Shown here: positions 15,428-59,177 of the stretch, piece after piece
Layout: each line of letters opens with the position of its first letter
Position numbering within the stretch: the first letter of the stretch is position 1
Assembly: GCA_902798975.1 (NCBI GenBank)
Contig: CADBYT010000004.1
Location: 142,721-206,720, forward strand
Length of the DNA stretch: 64,000 nucleotides
Reading direction: 5' to 3'
Origin: an uncultured Bacteroidia bacterium
GTDB taxonomy: Bacteria > Bacteroidota > Bacteroidia > Bacteroidales > UBA932
Translations under genes and position numbers: made by a program
The notes under the pieces: model-generated
The model's input: only the letters and a program-made list of their open reading frames with translations
The model's database searches: none
What the model was told of the DNA's origin: nothing

Positions 15428-17887
15428 TCAGCAGGCCTGCCAGGACTGGGGATCGCGGAAGCCTTTGAGGAATTCGGCGACGGGCATGCGCTTCTTGCCG
15501 GCGAGCTGGATGTCGGTCAGGGCGAGGGCGCCGTCGAGGGTGGCGATGGCGAGCCAGGTCTTGCCGTCGGAGAGGACGGTGCCGGGCGCGGCGTGGAGGT
15601 CCGGGCGCTTCTCGGTGCGGTAGATTTTGAGGATCTGGGATTCGCCGGTCGGGGCCGGCGAATGACGGGAACTGTCCTGAGAATCAGCGGTCGGAGTCGG
15701 CGAATGACGGGATGTCAATTCGGTGAAGGCAGCGGGATACGGCGAGAGGCCGCGGATGAGGTTGTAGATCTGGTCCGTGGGCCGGGTCCAGTCGATGCGG
15801 CAGAGCTCCTTGGTGAGTTTCGGGGCCGGCTTGAGCTCCTCGGAACCCTGGATGAAGGAGCGCTGGACGCGCAGCTCGACATTGTGCTGGATCAGGGCCT
15901 CAACGGTCTGCAGCACGAGGTCGGCGCCGATCATCATGAGGTCGTCATGTAGCTCGCCGGCCGTCTCGTCCGGCCGGATGCGGCACTCCTGACGGAGAAT
16001 GATGCCGCCGGTGTCGATGTCCTTGTCGATCATGAAGGTCGTCACGCCGGACATCTTCTCCCCGTTGATGACGGCCCAGTTGATCGGGGCGGCGCCGCGG
16101 TACTGCGGCAACAGGGCCGCGTGGAGGTTGAAGGTACCCAGCCGGGGCATGGCCCAGACCTCTTCCGGGAGCATGCGGAAGGCCACTACGACAAAGAGGT
16201 CGGCCTTCCAGGCGCGCAGCGCCTCGAGGAATTCCGGATCCTTGAGCTTGACGGGCTGCAGGACCGGGATGCCGTGCGCGACGGCGTACTGCTTGACTGC
16301 GCTCTCGTTCATCTTGAGGCCGCGGCCTGCCGGTTTGTCGGCCACCGTGACCACGCCCACGACTTTGTAGCCGGCCCGCACGAGGGTGTCAAGCGGCTTC
16401 ACGGCGAATTCGGGCGTGCCCATATAGACGATGCGCACAGGGCGGAACAGGCGCACGACCTTGCTCTTGAACTTGCGCCACCAGGTGGAGAATTGATCCA
16501 TATTGAGAAGCTCTGCGTCCCGCATCGCCTTCCAGGTGAAGAAGACGCCGAGAGGCGCTATGACGGCAGCGGATATGAAGACGCCGACGGGCGTCTCCAC
16601 GGCACCGTCCCGCGCCAGCTTGCTGCCGGAAATGTTGAAAACGTAGTAAATGACGAAGAAGAGCACGGAGATGATGAGGCTCACGCCGAGTCCCCCGCGC
16701 TTGCTCTTCACGAGCGCGCCCAGCGGCGCTCCGATGAAGAAAAGCAGGAAGCAGGCCAGTCCCTGCCCGTATTTCTCCAGGAAGGAAAGGTCGGACTGCC
16801 GGAGGTTGTAGCTCCTGTCGTAGCTATTGAAACGGAAATTGTTGATCTCGGCGCTGAAGCGTCCCACATTGTCCGCCGCGCGGACGCGGGCCTGCGCCTC
16901 GGCGTCCGGCCCGTGCCATTTCATGTAATCCGGCGCGTCGAAATCCATCCTGTCCGTATTGCGGAAGGCCGTGTCCAGCTGCCGGTTCATCTGGAACACG
17001 GAGCTGTAGCGGATGCTCTGGTACTGCCGGTTGTGGAGGGAATCCAGCTCACGGCGCAGCGAGTCGCTGAGCGCGCGCAGCTCCGCCATCTGCTTGGTCT
17101 TGATCGCGTCGTCGAAGCGGGCGGAGTCCGATTTCTCGAAGCTGTAGTTCTTCAGCGGAATGATCAGCTCCTGCCGGTCGAAGTTGATGTGCTGCAGGAC
17201 CAGGTTCGTGTCCTTGTAGTTCACCGTGTTGTCCTCCCGGTAGGTCGAGCCGTGGAAGAGCGTGAAGGTCAGGTAGTCCTTGCTCTTGGACATCTTCAGG
17301 AGGGCGGAATCCGCCATCGTCACGGAGATGTTGCCCTTGTGCGCCGTGTGGTCGTAGACCTGCACGTCGTAGAGCATTTTGTTCTGCTTGTTCTGGGCGC
17401 CGACGCGCAGGATGTAGCCGTCGATGCCGTTGTAGAAAGTCCCGGGCGGGATTTTGATCTCGTCCTTGGTGCGGGCGATGTCGTCGCGCAGGGTGTAGAT
17501 CTGGTTGAAGGCGTGGGGCACGAGCCGCGAGCAGACCACGAAGGCGCCCAGGCCGATGAACGCGGCGGTGACCGCGAGCGGCAGGATGACCCGGCCGAAG
17601 GAAATGCCGGAAGCCCGGATGGCCATCAGCTCCGTCCGCTCGGCGAGCTGGCCGATGGTCATGGTGGCCGCGAGCAGGGTCGCGAGCGGAATGGCGAGCG
17701 GCAGGGCGATGCTGCACACGCCCCAGAACAGGAATTCCAGGATGGTGCGGATGCCGAGGCCCTTGCCCACCAGCTCGTCGATGTAGAGCCAGAGCGTCTG
17801 CATCGCCAGGATGAAGACCACGATGAAGAGGATCGCGACGAACGGTCCGATGAACGACTTCAATATGAAGCGGTCGAGCTTCTTCAT
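15428..17887 (-). CDS. fmt: LptF/LptG-type permease fused to methionyl-tRNA formyltransferase
   Basis: This is an 819-residue open frame with two complete domains. Residues 1 to about 470 form a YjgP/YjgQ (LptF/LptG) permease: N-terminal membrane helices (about 12-32, 50-80, 100-122), a periplasmic beta-jellyroll-like region, then three C-terminal helices (about 365-455). From about residue 484 (VRIVYMGTPEFAVKPLD) a full Fmt domain follows, with NLHAALLPQYRG near 587 (catalytic Asn and His) and MIDKDIDTGG near 622 (catalytic Asp). No stop or shift separates them. Permeases of this type extract lipopolysaccharide; Fmt formylates initiator Met-tRNA in the cytosol. Two translated P4 palindromes lie at about residues 725-750. 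The gene follows alaS by 15 bases. Confidence 0.85.
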   Translation of the reverse strand: MKKLDRFILKSFIGPFVAILFIVVFILAMQTLWLYIDELVGKGLGIRTILEFLFWGVCSIALPLAIPLATLLAATMTIGQLAERTELMAIRASGISFGRVILPLAVTAAFIGLGAFVVCSRLVPHAFNQIYTLRDDIARTKDEIKIPPGTFYNGIDGYILRVGAQNKQNKMLYDVQVYDHTAHKGNISVTMADSALLKMSKSKDYLTFTLFHGSTYREDNTVNYKDTNLVLQHINFDRQELIIPLKNYSFEKSDSARFDDAIKTKQMAELRALSDSLRRELDSLHNRQYQSIRYSSVFQMNRQLDTAFRNTDRMDFDAPDYMKWHGPDAEAQARVRAADNVGRFSAEINNFRFNSYDRSYNLRQSDLSFLEKYGQGLACFLLFFIGAPLGALVKSKRGGLGVSLIISVLFFVIYYVFNISGSKLARDGAVETPVGVFISAAVIAPLGVFFTWKAMRDAELLNMDQFSTWWRKFKSKVVRLFRPVRIVYMGTPEFAVKPLDTLVRAGYKVVGVVTVADKPAGRGLKMNESAVKQYAVAHGIPVLQPVKLKDPEFLEALRAWKADLFVVVAFRMLPEEVWAMPRLGTFNLHAALLPQYRGAAPINWAVINGEKMSGVTTFMIDKDIDTGGIILRQECRIRPDETAGELHDDLMMIGADLVLQTVEALIQHNVELRVQRSFIQGSEELKPAPKLTKELCRIDWTRPTDQIYNLIRGLSPYPAAFTELTSRHSPTPTADSQDSSRHSPAPTGESQILKIYRTEKRPDLHAAPGTVLSDGKTWLAIATLDGALALTDIQLAGKKRMPVAEFLKGFRDPQSWQAC
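15640..15711. repeat. Two REP-type palindromes (family P4) inside the fmt part
   Basis: Copy 1 has arms ATTCGCCGG (15640-15648) and CCGGCGAAT (15655-15663). Copy 2, more degenerate, covers about 15681-15711 and also ends in GAATGACGG. They are translated in the same frame as the peptides SRHSPAPTGESQ and SRHSPTPTADSQ, an insertion in the Fmt C-terminal domain that is not part of the family core. Confidence 0.8.
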
Positions 17888-23566: not shown

Positions 23567-23635
23567 CGTTCCCGCTACAATGTTTCCCAAAAGGGCTGTG
23601 ATGCATAAACCGCTAATTTACAAATAATTACCACA

Positions 23636-23666
23636 TTATACTACCCCCAAAAACGGGGTAGTATAA
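23636..23666. terminator. Perfect 12-bp hairpin between convergent genes
   Basis: Arms TTATACTACCCC (23636-23647) and GGGGTAGTATAA (23655-23666) enclose the loop CAAAAAC. It lies between the ends of the reductase gene (plus) and trmB (minus) and may terminate both. There is no long T tract after either arm, so the termination role is uncertain. Confidence 0.6.
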
Positions 23667-23693
23667 TTGTATTAGCAATTGAATTCGAGCTAG

Positions 23694-24848
23694 TTACAGA
23701 TCACAAGGATTGGGCGAGCTAGCGCCGTGGAGTTTCTGCCGGCGGGTCTCGGCGGAGTCGTGGCCGAAGAGCAGGCGCGGCCCCTCGGCGGCGCGCCAGG
23801 CCTTGCTGTCGAATTGTTCCGGGTCCCGGGGGCTCGCATACGGCCCCTCATGGTCGATGACGAACGACAGATACGTAATCGGATAACCCTGCTCCAGGAA
23901 CAGCTGCTCGTAAAATGTCTGCACTTCACGTACGACCGGTTGCACGGCCGGCGCTGAATTGCCTGTTTCGGCAGTCCTCCCAGAAAACCGTGCCACCCTC
24001 GGCTTCGTAAGAGGGAGGGGCCCATCGTCAGATGGGAGGGGTCCGGCATAGCCGGACGTTTTTCGGGGGGAGCTGCCGAACAGCTCAACGTCGGCCGATC
24101 CGTACAGGTCCGTGGTACAGGCAAGCACTTTGAGGCCATTGGCCTCGCAGACGGCGCGGGTGTATTCGTGGAGGAAACGGGAGTCGGTCTTGAGATGGAC
24201 GATGCCGCCGGGCTTCAGGAAGGAGCGGTAGCGCTCCAGGAAGAGCGGCGAGCTGAGGCGCGAGTTCTCGCTGCGGTACTGCGGATCGGAGAAGGTCAGC
24301 CAGATCTCGGACACTTCGCCGGGGGCGAAGAACGCGGTAATGAATTCGACGCGCGTCCGCAGAAACGCCACGTTCGGCAGCGCGTGTTCGGTGGCGTATT
24401 TCGCCCCCTTCCACAGGCGCGCGCCCTTGATGTCCACGCCGATGTAGTTCCGCGCCGGATCCCGCTCCGCCAGCGCAATCGTATACTCCCCCTTCCCGCA
24501 TCCCAGCTCCAGAACGATTTCGCGCGCAGCAGCTTCGGCAGTCTCCCCGGCAGACCGTAGCCGCCCTCGGCTTCGTAAGAGGGAGGGGCCCGCCGGACTT
24601 GGGACGGAGGCCGCAAGCTCGCTTGCAGGCATCCGGTCAAAGGACGGTGGGAGGGGTCCGGCGCAGCCGGACGTCTGCAGGGGGGAGCTGCCGAGCTGCA
24701 AGCCGCCGAAGAAATCATTCCAGCGACCTTTGATGGCGTGGTCGCGGAGGTGGAAGTAGCCGTCGGCGAGCAGCTCCTGCGCGGAAGGCTGCAGGAGACA
24801 GGAGAACGTCTCGTTCTCCGCGAATTTCCGTAATTTATCGTGTCCCAT
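23694..24848 (-). CDS. trmB: tRNA (guanine-N7)-methyltransferase with two inserted palindromic elements
   Basis: This 384-residue enzyme methylates G46 of tRNA with S-adenosylmethionine. Core motifs are VLELGCGKGEYT (SAM binding), GVDIKGARLWKGAK and IWLTFSDPQ. The protein is far longer than the roughly 230-260 residues of other Bacteroidota TrmB, because two P1 elements are translated in frame: residues about 50-107, before the SAM motif, and about 255-296, near the C-terminus. An extended C-terminal tail after the VVREVQTFYEQ motif adds more. The reading frame survives both insertions, so the protein is probably made. It overlaps gldH by 14 bases. Confidence 0.88.
   Translation of the reverse strand: MGHDKLRKFAENETFSCLLQPSAQELLADGYFHLRDHAIKGRWNDFFGGLQLGSSPLQTSGCAGPLPPSFDRMPASELAASVPSPAGPSLLRSRGRLRSAGETAEAAAREIVLELGCGKGEYTIALAERDPARNYIGVDIKGARLWKGAKYATEHALPNVAFLRTRVEFITAFFAPGEVSEIWLTFSDPQYRSENSRLSSPLFLERYRSFLKPGGIVHLKTDSRFLHEYTRAVCEANGLKVLACTTDLYGSADVELFGSSPRKTSGYAGPLPSDDGPLPLTKPRVARFSGRTAETGNSAPAVQPVVREVQTFYEQLFLEQGYPITYLSFVIDHEGPYASPRDPEQFDSKAWRAAEGPRLLFGHDSAETRRQKLHGASSPNPCDL
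23963..24083. repeat. Palindromic element P1, copy 2, inside trmB
   Basis: The ends are CTGTTTCGGCAG (23963-23974) and CTGCCGAACAG (24073-24083), an imperfect inverted repeat. The core has the hairpin TCCGGCATAGCCGGA and the CCCTC...GAGGG hairpin shared with the other copies. The inner 6-bp stem next to ACG/CGG is GAAAAC/GTTTTC here, unlike the other copies but still complementary. Confidence 0.85.
24529..24699. repeat. Palindromic element P1, copy 1, inside trmB
   Basis: The ends are GCAGCTTCGGCAG (24529-24541) and CTGCCGAGCTGC (24688-24699). It shares the TCCGGC...GCCGGA and CCCTC...GAGGG hairpins with the other copies. The middle is longest here and holds its own hairpin GCAAGCTCGCTTGC. 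It is translated as SPLQTSGCAGPLPP and PSLLRSRGRLRS with a spacer between them. Confidence 0.85.
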
Positions 24849-41684: not shown

Positions 41685-41776
41685 CCGGCGACGGAGTCTT
41701 CCAGACGAGCGGACGCAAATTATTTTCCGGACAGGTTTGCCGGAAAACCAATTTGCACTCCGCCTTCCGTCGCCGG
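41685..41776. repeat. Double-stem palindrome, family P3, copy A
   Basis: The outer 11-bp perfect arms are CCGGCGACGGA (41685-41695) and TCCGTCGCCGG (41766-41776). The inner core 41710-41762 has the stem TTTTCCGG/CCGGAAAA and the stem GCAAATT/AATTTGC, separated by a small internal loop. It lies 8 bases after the stop of the methyltransferase gene at 41784 and may end its transcript. Two further copies are at 59100-59233. Short open frames crossing it encode LVFRQTCPENN and are not genes. Confidence 0.85.
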
Positions 41777-48043: not shown

Positions 48044-48279
48044 GCGCCCTGGACATCATCAAGCGGATCCTCTCCGCGCCGTTCATCCTGCTGATCAAAT
48101 TCTATCAGCTGTGCATCTCGCCCCTCAAGGGGCCGACCTGCCGCTTCACCCCCACCTGCTCGCAGTACGCCCTCGAGGCCTTCCGCAAGTACGGGCCTTT
48201 CAAAGGGTTCTGGCTCTCGCTGAAACGTATCCTCCGCTGCCACCCGTGGGGTGGTAGTGGATATGATCCAGTGCCCTGA
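48040..48279 (+). CDS. yidD: YidD, membrane protein insertion efficiency factor
   Basis: This is a 79-residue protein with the conserved cysteine segment [14 protein letters not shown] and the C-terminal [14 protein letters not shown]. It supports YidC-dependent membrane insertion. The end GYDPVP is family sequence, so the codons of 48260-48275, which form the left arm of a hairpin, are original and the right arm (48281-48296) is a copy. Confidence 0.93.
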
Positions 48280-48369
48280 CGGCACTGGATCATATCGCTG
48301 ACGCTATGACGGGGGGCGTTCCCCCCGGAACCCCCTGCGTCGCTTCGCTTCGATGCTGCAGACGCTAGC
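48260..48369 (+). repeat. Palindromic element P2 with inverted copy of the yidD end
   Basis: A perfect 16-bp hairpin, 48260-48275 against 48281-48296 with loop CTGAC, is followed by GCTGACGCTATGACGGGGG, a G5/C5 hairpin (GGGGGG...CCCCCC) and a GTCGCTTCGCT stretch, up to about 48369. The stop codon of yidD lies in the loop. The tail reaches the 3' end of the convergent S24/S26 gene. The same element is inside mutY. Confidence 0.8.
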
Positions 48370-48790: not shown

Positions 48791-49775
48791 CGACCGTTTC
48801 CTGACAGAGCCGGGCGGCCGCCTCGTCCGGCAGACATTCCAATTGATAGCAAGGCACCTGCTGTGCGATGGCGGACAGGGTCTCGTGCTGCGCGTCGGCG
48901 AGCGAGCGGATGGGGCGGAAGCCGGAGCAGGAAGCCATCACGGAACCGTACGCATGCACCATGCTGAGGCGCTCGATGCGGTTGTACGGTGCCTGCCGCA
49001 GGCGGACGATGGCACCCACAGGCGCATCCTGCGCCTTGTAGCAGGGCGTTTTGCCGCTCCAGGGCGAGCCGAACACCCGCGCCTGCCCGTCGATGATGCG
49101 GAGCACCGGATTGTCGTCGTTGAGCAGTTCCGTTCCGGGGATGTGGTCCAGCCAAAGGCGGGAGTGGGTGCTCTTGCCGGTGCCGCTCTTGCCCAGGAAC
49201 AGGAAGCCGCGTCCGCCGTGCAGCGCCACCGAGGCGTGCATCTCCAGCGCGGCGTACGGCGCCGACGCGAAGGCGAACAGCAGCATCAGCGCGTTGTTGA
49301 TGGCGAAGGCCTGGGCGGACGGACTGCCTTCGGCAAAAAGTTTCCCCTCCCGGAAATCGCCGCTCATCTCCAGCACGCCGCACACCTGCGCGCCCGGCCC
49401 GGGCGCAAACGCCGCCTGGTAACCCTCACCGCTGCGGAAGAAGCCCACGACGGGTTCGCCCGTCTTCTCCTGCGGTTTCAGCAGCGGCTCCCCCGGTTCC
49501 CCCGGTTTCTGATCACTCAGTTCCAGATGGAACAAGGCAGCGGAACCGTCAGCAGCCTCGCCAGACCGTAGCCACCCTCGGCTTCGTAAGAGGGAGGGGG
49601 CCGACGACGAAGTCGTTGGGAGGGGTCCGGCACAGCCGGACGTCTGGAGAGGCTGGCTGTCGGTCCGCGCCTCCAGCGAAAACGGATCGTAGTTGTGCAA
49701 CAGGTCAGCGGCCGGATGGCCGTCCGGCAGATCCAGCGAGAAGACAAGTCCCGCGACCTGAAAAAATCGGACCAT
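48783..49775 (-). CDS. HPr kinase-like P-loop protein with inserted element
   Basis: This 330-residue protein has Walker A GKSGTGKST near residue 200 (within ALHGGRGFLFLGKSGTGKST) and LLNDDNPVLRI downstream, as in the HprK/PEPCK-like proteins that accompany PqqD in peptide-modification loci. No HPr or PTS genes are in the window, so sugar-transport control is unlikely. A P1 element is translated at residues 41-74 (TSGCAGPLP, SLLRSRGWLRS), in a poorly conserved N-terminal region. It precedes the S24/S26 gene and follows lepA by 6 bases. Confidence 0.72.
   Translation of the reverse strand: MVRFFQVAGLVFSLDLPDGHPAADLLHNYDPFSLEARTDSQPLQTSGCAGPLPTTSSSAPSLLRSRGWLRSGEAADGSAALFHLELSDQKPGEPGEPLLKPQEKTGEPVVGFFRSGEGYQAAFAPGPGAQVCGVLEMSGDFREGKLFAEGSPSAQAFAINNALMLLFAFASAPYAALEMHASVALHGGRGFLFLGKSGTGKSTHSRLWLDHIPGTELLNDDNPVLRIIDGQARVFGSPWSGKTPCYKAQDAPVGAIVRLRQAPYNRIERLSMVHAYGSVMASCSGFRPIRSLADAQHETLSAIAQQVPCYQLECLPDEAAARLCQETVDA
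49553..49655. repeat. Palindromic element P1, copy 3, in the HprK-like gene
   Basis: The ends CAGCCTCGCCAG (49553-49564) and CTGGAGAGGCTG (49644-49655) form an inverted repeat with one mismatch. The core hairpin TCCGGCACAGCCGGA and the CCCTC...GAGGG stretch are as in the two trmB copies, and the tip hairpin (ACGACGAAGTCGT) differs from both. Confidence 0.85.
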
Positions 49776-57226: not shown

Positions 57227-58379
57227 ATGTCGTCTTTTTCCGGAACCATCCTGTCCTGGTACGACGCCAACGGGCGTGACCTGCCCTGGCGCCACACGCG
57301 GGATCCGTATGCCATCTGGCTGAGCGAGATCATTCTCCAGCAGACGCGCATCGCCCAGGGGCAGGCTTACTGGGAACGTTTCCTGGCCGCCTGGCCGGAC
57401 GTGCAGGCGCTCGCCGCAGCGACCGAAGACGAGGTTCTGCGCTGCTGGCAGGGACTCGGCTACTACAGCCGGGCACGCAACCTGCACGCAGCGGCGCGCC
57501 AGATTGCGGCAGAGGGGCATTTCCCGGATACTCTCGCGGGAATCCGGGCCCTCAAGGGTGTCGGGGACTACACGGCCGCAGCCATCGGCTCCATCGCATT
57601 CGGCCTGCCGGCAGCCGTCGTGGACGGCAACGTGTACCGCGTACTGGCACGGCATTTCGGAATCGAGACGCCGGTCGGCTCCGCTGCCGCGAAAAAAGAA
57701 TTCACCGCCCTCGCCCAGTCGCTGCTTCCGCCCGACAGGCCGGGGGACTTCAACCAGGGAATGATGGACTTCGGCGCGATGCAGTGCACGCCGGCGGCGC
57801 CCCGCTGCGCTCTCTGTCCGCTTGCGGGCAGTTGCGCAGCGCTCGCCGTCGGCCGCGTGGACGAACTCCCCGTCCGGGAGAAGGGCCCCGCCGTGCTGGA
57901 GCGCCGTTTCAGCTATGTCTATGTCCGCTTCCACGGGCGCACGGCCATCCGCAAGCGTCCCGTCGGCGACATTTGGGCCGGGTTGTTTGAGCCGTTGGTC
58001 TGCGACCAGCGGCTCGACGGCATTGTCTATGACGGGGGCGGAGACACCCCATTTTGCCCCTCGCGACAGGAAAAATCGCTTACCAGGGGTAAATCAGGGC
58101 CTTTTTGCCCCTCGGAACCGGAGCTACGAGGCAGTCGGAGCGAAGCGACCGAGGGGGTGTCGGGGGAACCTTCCCCCGTCATAGCGTCAGCGTTGGACAG
58201 ATTTGAGTGGCTCAAATCTGTCCGGCACCAGCTAACGCACCGGACGCTGATCGTGGATTTCTACCTCTGGGAACCGGCGGAAGAACCGGCCCTGCCGGAT
58301 GGCTATGTCTGGATTGAAGAAGCGGAGCTCGACCGCTACGCCAAGCCCCGCCTCTTCGAGCGTCTGCTGGAGACACTCC

Positions 58380-58387
<8 letters not shown>
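57227..58387 (+). CDS. mutY: Adenine DNA glycosylase with element-derived insertion
   Basis: This 386-residue repair enzyme removes adenine opposite 8-oxoguanine. Catalytic parts are complete: SEIILQQTRI (catalytic Glu), LKGVGDYTAAAIGS (helix-hairpin-helix), VVDGNVYRV (catalytic Asp) and the 4Fe-4S ligands CTPAAPRCALCPLAGSC near residues 187-203. The C-terminal Nudix-like recognition domain is interrupted at about residues 268-328 by about 58 foreign residues (TPFCPSRQEKSLTRGKSGPF and following), after which family sequence resumes at KSVRHQLTHRTL. The frame is kept, so glycosylase activity is likely; recognition of 8-oxoguanine may be affected. Confidence 0.9.
58051..58223. repeat. Element P2 plus a 51-bp-spaced direct repeat inside mutY
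   Basis: From 58051, TTTTGCCCCTCG occurs twice (58052-58063 and 58103-58114), 51 bases apart, so in frame (FCPS). Then the P2 element follows, in reverse orientation to the yidD copy: GCGAAGCGAC stretch, GGGGGAA/TTCCCCC hairpin (58162-58177), and the complement of GCTGACGCTATGACGGGGG at 58173-58191. It ends in a perfect 13-bp hairpin, 58195-58207 against 58211-58223, whose outer arm is native mutY sequence (codons for LKSV). Confidence 0.8.
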
Positions 58388-59065: not shown

Positions 59066-59099
59066 CAGCCGGCTTGCCGCGCGTTGGCGTCGTGGAGGG

Positions 59100-59156
59100 C
59101 GGAGCCGGAATTGGTTTTCCGGCAAACCTGTCCGGAAAATAATTCCGGGCCGTCCG
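59100..59156. repeat. Double-stem palindrome, family P3, copy B
   Basis: The inner stem is TTTTCCGG/CCGGAAAA, with loop CAAACCTGT; the outer stem is GCCGGAATT/AATTCCGGGC. GG on one side and TA on the other form an internal loop kept in all three copies. Confidence 0.88.
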
Positions 59157-59177
59157 TTGGGGAAGCGTCGTGCAGGG

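Follow-up and report, generated by a model that had tools for sequence, protein, structure and literature searches.

Short palindromic repeats in the genomes of a Bacteroidales genus are often joined, at one fixed end, to an inverted copy of the host sequence beside them, so that host and copy together form a hairpin whose stem changes from site to site. This junction signature of a REP-like repeat is real, recurrent and unusual. Our reading, which we hold at about even confidence, is that the element is a non-coding palindromic mobile repeat of the REP kind, about 60 nt long, that would enter the chromosome by a route including fold-back (snap-back) copying of the host flank. The window, by which we mean the whole 64-kb stretch of DNA analysed, belongs to a MAG that is 71% complete (G000) and holds two copies, one inside mutY and one at the 3′ end of yidD (Table 1).

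The element in mutY

The mutY frame encodes 386 aa and stays open across the element, in agreement with the original prediction that the gene is interrupted in frame. PDB MutY chains match residues 4-260 of the product (E about 1e-67), with the best alignment ending at residue 260, immediately ahead of the insert, and the NUDIX_4 match is confined to profile positions 59-112 of 113. The linker, which we define as the region from the end of WAGLFEPLV to the HQLTH motif, contains in order the EPLV hairpin, a tail remnant, about 98 bases, the core, the tail and the LKSV hairpin. Past the tail, the 13-bp mirrored arm is the exact reverse complement of the codons at 58211-58223; the hairpin had been predicted at precisely these coordinates, and comparison with MutY orthologues confirms that its LKSV codons are native, as claimed. 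The extent given for the conserved part, 58121-58191, needed correction. The shared part spans 58135-58192 on the forward strand, is 84% identical to the reverse complement of 48296-48353 at yidD and leaves 58121-58134 outside the match. The element is open in three of the six reading frames.

The linker also holds an older hairpin and a tail remnant of which the original prediction made no mention. This EPLV hairpin is also present in related species, where its arms covary, and from by-eye alignment we infer that 57989-58036 is the leftover of a second, opposite copy whose core has mostly been lost or replaced. The insert that follows has no counterpart by eye in the mutY orthologues compared.

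Other features of the gene and its linker were seen in passing. A mini-stem of 3-4 bp (GGC-nnn-GCC) lies in the tail of the mutY copies and likewise shows apparent covariation from species to species. A second palindromic repeat family, found in the window at 41705-41768 and 59094-59157, reads ENYFSQGFAKNQFS in the mutY linkers of several congeners, and this linker seems to attract repeats generally, as a hot spot. In a set of 150 genomes with a completeness of 90% or more and contamination of 5% or less, only 38 had a MutY match at E ≤ 1e-60, and mutY seems to be missing or very divergent across most of the genus.

Table 1. Features of the two element copies and their surroundings, in window coordinates
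Feature	Position	Strand	Basis or remarks
mutY (A/G-specific adenine glycosylase)	57227-58387	+	Open frame through all insertions; Pfam HhH-GPD, NUDIX_4; PDB MutY chains
Older hairpin	57989-58015	+	Native EPLV codons GAGCCGTTGGTC 57989-58000; loop TGC 58001-58003; mirrored arm GACCAGCGGCTC 58004-58015 (reads DQRL); one mismatched position
Putative tail remnant of reverse-oriented copy	58016-58036	-	By-eye comparison with G124, G113, G166 and others keeping the reverse core
Insert between the two mutY copies	58037-58134	.	Weaker self-complementary stretch at about 58053-58093
Element core TCGGAGCGAAGCGACCGAGGGGGTGTCGGGGGAACCTTCCCCCG	58135-58178	+	Shared with the yidD copy and genus-wide copies
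Element tail TCATAGCGTCAGCGTT (type A tail)	58179-58194	+	
Mirrored arm GGACAGATTTGAG	58195-58207	+	Inverted copy of the host codons that follow
Hairpin loop TGG	58208-58210	+	
Native host arm, LKSV codons	58211-58223	+	MutY orthologues
Second copy of core and tail	48296-48353	-	yidD 3′ end; YidD by Pfam match
yidD hairpin	48260-48296	+	Native codons at 48260-48275; loop CTGAC, in which the stop codon is completed; mirrored arm at 48281-48296

Hairpins at the tail end across the genus

The element was detected in 130 of 400 genomes of the genus (E ≤ 0.01), a count of genomes and not of copies, at most two candidates having been scored in most of them. Twelve places match in its own genome, including the query itself and a reverse-strand match of the query's hairpin, and the exact core pattern is shared by six named records, MAGs or isolates assigned to Bacteroidales or Bacteroidia, of which two came from the rumen or omasum of goats. 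Two candidate identities were rejected, a known RNA family, as Rfam at gathering thresholds gave only the tRNA in the window, and a phage source, as the phage collection gave no match at E 0.01.

Hairpins were searched for at 132 loci. Cores were recognised in 83 of these, amounting to 88 distinct copies, and five copies with too little right-hand sequence were dropped, leaving 83 testable. Counting hairpins of score at least 9 that start no more than 45 nt from the core end, 52 of the 83 copies carry one just after the tail (37 at a score of at least 12) and 31 do not. The same test on the head side gave 5 of 82 copies, random places gave 5 of 249, and shuffled flanks gave 0 of 249, the shuffles being single-base ones that preserve base composition only. 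The pattern is therefore real and polar, with the hairpin at the tail end. Many copies share descent, so the counts are not all independent events, and with one genome per species the states before and after insertion are compared across species.

Within the window, six hairpins reach a score of at least 12 and two of them adjoin the mutY and yidD copies; the simulated probability that both copies have a strong hairpin no more than 20 nt away is 8.5e-5. Chance, which had been thought an unlikely cause of the hairpins, is ruled out by these two figures together with the random and shuffle controls. As further controls we took other repeats of the window, and three D1/D2 and two 'ENYF' stretches were without a hairpin of score at least 9.

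Some of these repeats deserve mention in their own right. D1/D2 is a third repeat family (CCCTCGGCTTCGTAAGAGGGAGGGG ... TGGGAGGGGTCCGGC), located at 23958-24084, 24526-24699 and 49537-49668 and without adjacent strong hairpins. A GATTCGCC repeat at 15635 is a hairpin by itself. Similar strong hairpins (ACTACCCC...GGGGTAGT) occur at 23635-23667 of the window and in the left flank of locus L040.

Host origin of the mirrored arm

At every site that we traced the distal arm is host sequence, made up of codons (mutY, metH, yidD and ppdK) or of tRNA and tmRNA 3′ ends. The sites in mutY and metH are in frame, and those at gene 3′ ends concern yidD, a LytTR response-regulator gene and a gene that we take to be ppdK, its Pfam match being PEP-utilising enzyme. 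The mirrored arm matches the local target and recurs at unrelated sites with different local sequence, which bears out the proposal that it is taken from wherever the element sits.

Comparison with orthologues was most extensive for mutY, where 91 genes were found and 89 fetched, 88 of them placed at the EPLV site and 87 readable at the right flank. At the EPLV site a hairpin of score at least 8 is present in 8 of 8 genes flagged for a core versus 3 of 80 unflagged ones; the flag misses a forward core in L078 and a reverse core in L082, as well as the truncated yidD core of G074, all of which were seen by eye. Element-free genes nearly always show the host arm alone. The original prediction had named both arms without a core as the case that would speak against it, and this case does occur, in part, at the EPLV hairpin, in G275, where the tail is kept, and in G135 and G193, where it is absent; all three lie inside the clade of carriers described below. 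At the right flank, the LKSV site, the same score is reached in 3 of 87 genes, namely that of the window, that of G221, which has its own forward core there as in the window, and that of G008, whose linker carries a reverse core and whose right-flank hairpin lies at another place. Forward copies in mutY go with the right flank and reverse copies with the left flank, as predicted from the polarity, the exception being L082, whose reverse core is without arms.

Two genes with the element at their 3′ ends were compared as well. In ppdK the mirror (score 11) is present in 2 of 2 genes with a core versus 1 of 28 without (G011). The ppdK element lies after the stop codon and before another, distinct hairpin, and this second hairpin may act for one or the other of two convergent genes. 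In yidD, where the motif was absent in 1 of 30 loci, the hairpin of the window scores 16, and among the 27 genes without a flagged core G015 scores 14 (its tail remains), G011 scores 9 and the other 25 score at most 7. The decayed yidD core of G135 goes with a score of only 5 and the truncated one of G074 with a score of 6. G011 stands apart in that both its ppdK (L300) and its yidD (L280), although free of the element, carry a mirrored hairpin that spans the stop codon.

These comparisons bear on the possibility that the hairpin comes first. Template switches would make hairpins, and an insertion machinery would then recognise a hairpin or cruciform of any sequence beside its target, in the manner of diversity-generating retroelements (DGRs) and group IIC introns, for which free-sequence hairpins beside the insertion or homing site are a precedent (excerpts of PMC3240598). 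Such an order of events would suit a stem that is free in sequence and fixed in position and polarity, and core-less hairpins are indeed present in G011 at ppdK and yidD and in G135 and G193 at mutY. However, the group IIC and DGR hairpins described in those excerpts pre-exist in the target, whereas most element-free orthologues here are without one (hairpins in 1 of 28 for ppdK, 3 of 80 for mutY EPLV and 2 of 27 for yidD, the last at a score of at least 9). Insertion would then need hairpins that are rare yet regularly found, and we consider this order of events rather unlikely.

tRNA and tmRNA sites

Thirteen of the 52 copies with a hairpin have a tRNA or tmRNA gene ending at or close to the host arm, with the RNA 3′ end inside or directly against the arm in 11 of them and 2 nt from it in the other two. 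This count considered RNA gene 3′ ends only. In a retest that allowed either gene end, all 17 RNA gene/copy pairs near the 83 copies had the 3′ end facing the element, 15 of them on the tail side, 14 of these with a hairpin, and two on the head side, both at the tandem locus L063 and without a hairpin.

For tRNA-Leu(CAA), 27 of 30 loci were usable. A 6-nt mirror of the acceptor end is present in six of them and absent in 21, which again argues against hairpins that precede the element; in L333 the mirror is nearly complete but falls outside the strict count. The core pattern lies downstream of the tRNA in 4 of 6 loci with the mirror versus 0 of 21 without, although two of the four matches depend on a pattern derived from L330 itself and their exclusion leaves 2 of 6. 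One locus, L322, has the hairpin without the core. As for ready-made terminators the picture is mixed, with ordinary terminators after the tRNA at many of the loci that lack the mirror and the element.

The orientation of all 17 RNA genes towards the element, and the many sites at the 3′ ends of genes, tRNAs and tmRNAs, would fit a hairpin under selection, in which case the element would be kept for its strong 3′-end stem, as a stabiliser of the message or a transcription terminator, and the complementarity of the stem would come from ordinary compensatory change. Covariation of the arms, presented below, would fit as well. The mutY and metH copies, however, lie inside coding frames where a terminator would cut the message, and by argument perfect stems of 13-20 bp reaching into codons would be hard to attain through single compensatory steps. 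We find this explanation quite improbable.

Age and upkeep of the arms

The MutY tree comprised 84 proteins, three duplicate rows (L010, L013 and L014) having been removed. All 13 rows labelled as carriers of a core or of the EPLV hairpin fall into one 19-member clade (support 99/93) and none is found among the other 65, so that the EPLV copy is probably one old insertion. Its core would probably have been lost later in G275, G135 and G193, and largely in the window; as these three genomes sit within the carrier clade, core loss is a simpler reading than a hairpin that arose before the element. As the sister G124 is without it, the window's forward copy is probably the younger of the two. The labels are scattered inside the clade, with at least five changes, and losses or repeated insertions must therefore have happened.

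The arms stay complementary between species despite codon differences. In the 36 pairs among nine genes with the EPLV hairpin, fourfold sites are 16-55% different. Across 10 distinct sequences of the hairpin 97.5% of cells are paired, three pairs have changed on both sides, and the codon pairs GAA/TTC, TTG/CAA, CTG/CAG and CCT/AGG covary in the stem. The covariation score of 0.167 compares with a mean of 0.074 for shuffled alignments, none of 500 of which reached it, and with 0.017-0.085 for slid versions of the alignment; relatedness alone can beat the shuffles, and the slid controls retain relatedness. The arms change in step between G000 and G113 at ppdK and from one species to another at metH, where some species show one or two mismatches. 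The arms have therefore also been maintained after arising, and not just copied once.

Relation to known systems

Palindromic elements of Rickettsia insert in frame into protein genes. Our element resembles them by its in-frame palindromic insertion in mutY and metH, a likeness in description only by which we claim no membership, and we know of no mirrored host flank in the Rickettsia elements.

REP/RAYT repeats, including the atypical Bacteroidetes TnpA_Y1 subclass 2.6 (PMC6006769) and REPINs (PMC3116915), are described in excerpts of these papers as short, palindromic and interspersed, with several per genome and often in intergenic positions, and tandem units that include flanking sequence occur among them. 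The present element is alike in all of this, as its several copies in its own genome and its spread through the genus illustrate. It differs in being without a GTAG/GTGG foot at the core hairpin, neither motif being found directly 5′ of the CGGGGG..CCCCCG core hairpin in 8 aligned copies, and without a firm tie to a Y1 gene. It differs further in the inverted local host flank at one end, which the excerpts of PMC6006769 and PMC3116915 do not describe.

We did find candidate Y1 genes, and an ordinary RAYT/REP system could be imagined in which the element is mobilised by a Y1 transposase and the mirrored flank arises as a by-product. The Y1-like gene L191 of the same genome (G000:C13) is bracketed by two core copies that point in opposite directions, and a further such gene, L178 (G000:C5), has a core copy close by. 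Genes of the L191 type (at least 65% identity) occur in 10 of 300 genomes, and all ten have the element, versus about 97 of 300 overall (the 97 being approximate). This association is confounded by shared descent, however, and the L191 type is absent from most element-bearing genomes. A core lies no more than 1.5 kb from only 4 of 10 L191-type loci, in three cases by way of the neighbouring metH copy, the Y1 genes carry different hairpins of their own in the flanks examined, and L191 and L178 match Pfam Y1_Tnp weakly, at 22.4 and 22.8 bits with a cut-off of 23. That such a system moves the element appears very doubtful to us.

CGTC-tagged REPs, in excerpts of PMC3733652, are alike in having no known dedicated transposase, and in our element a CGTCAT runs from the last bases of the core hairpin into the tail. 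In those repeats the tag is unpaired and opens the repeat's own stem of 8-9 bp with a loop of 4-5 nt, whereas here CGTCAT overlaps the core-hairpin end and the long stem that follows, on the far side of the tail, is host-derived. Template-switch hairpins and quasi-palindrome correction, in excerpts of PMC8794818, are alike in that fold-back copying makes and keeps perfect stems, and our hairpins show the same reverse-complement arm of adjacent sequence, short loop and coordinated two-sided changes. The switch described there is a stand-alone mutation, whereas here the hairpin is tied to a repeat in place and polarity. Titles and abstract openings in the limited literature searched hold no description of a mirrored host flank at a REP-like repeat.

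A proposed fold-back route of insertion

The observation made in the original prediction is confirmed, and its interpretation is supported with the qualifications given above. In the reading that we favour, the host 3′ end at the target would anneal to itself, by way of a short self-complementary seed or of a terminator already in place, would be extended on itself for about 9-28 nt and would then be joined to the element at its tail end. The product would read host arm, loop, inverted host copy, tail and core. During evolution of the gene the arms would be kept complementary by later template switching between them or by selection for the hairpin; template switching has been described as able both to create and to maintain hairpins (excerpts of PMC8794818). 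Fold-back synthesis would account for an arm that is an inverted copy, for the short loop and for stems that run on into a tRNA.

A seed of a few bases, GGTC-nnn-GACC in mutY, is plausible if weakly supported. The motif is found in the mutY carriers and in the core-less clade members L075 and L085, where it may be a remnant; the case for it is weakened because the compared outgroups are mostly without a perfect one.

Certain arrangements are not predicted by simple fold-back. In 20 of 51 hairpin-bearing copies part of the arm, loop and tail is repeated left of the core, on the head side, and L058 and L063 carry whole units in tandem; L206 also has head-side repetition or tandem units. Tandem duplication at a later time may have produced them, or else a duplication of the target; the second possibility, if the duplicate came from a pre-existing hairpin, would favour the reading in which the hairpin precedes the element. 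Core-less hairpins are likewise counter-cases to fold-back and comprise those in three mutY genes, at yidD in G015 and G011, at ppdK in G011 and at the tRNA-Leu locus L322. The 31 of 83 copies with no tail-side hairpin also speak against the model, as do decayed or irregular cases such as the yidD core of G135 with its low score and the armless reverse core of L082.

Returning to fold-back insertion, a more general form of it, to which we give tentative credence short of an even chance, is that a class of bacterial palindromic elements inserts by snap-back of a host 3′ end that is joined to one fixed element end, each copy building its hairpin from local DNA or from a tRNA or tmRNA 3′ end. How CGTC REPs that lack their own transposase move is presented as an open question in excerpts of PMC3733652. 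Our results suggest a mobile-looking repeat of ruminant gut bacteria whose insertion involves DNA that folds back and serves as its own template. A host flank copied in inverted form at one end of the repeat is a junction signature readable from genomes, which would let insertions be recognised, dated and tested. It would link the mobility of short repeats to fold-back DNA synthesis, and it would account for in-frame palindromes in genes such as mutY and metH.
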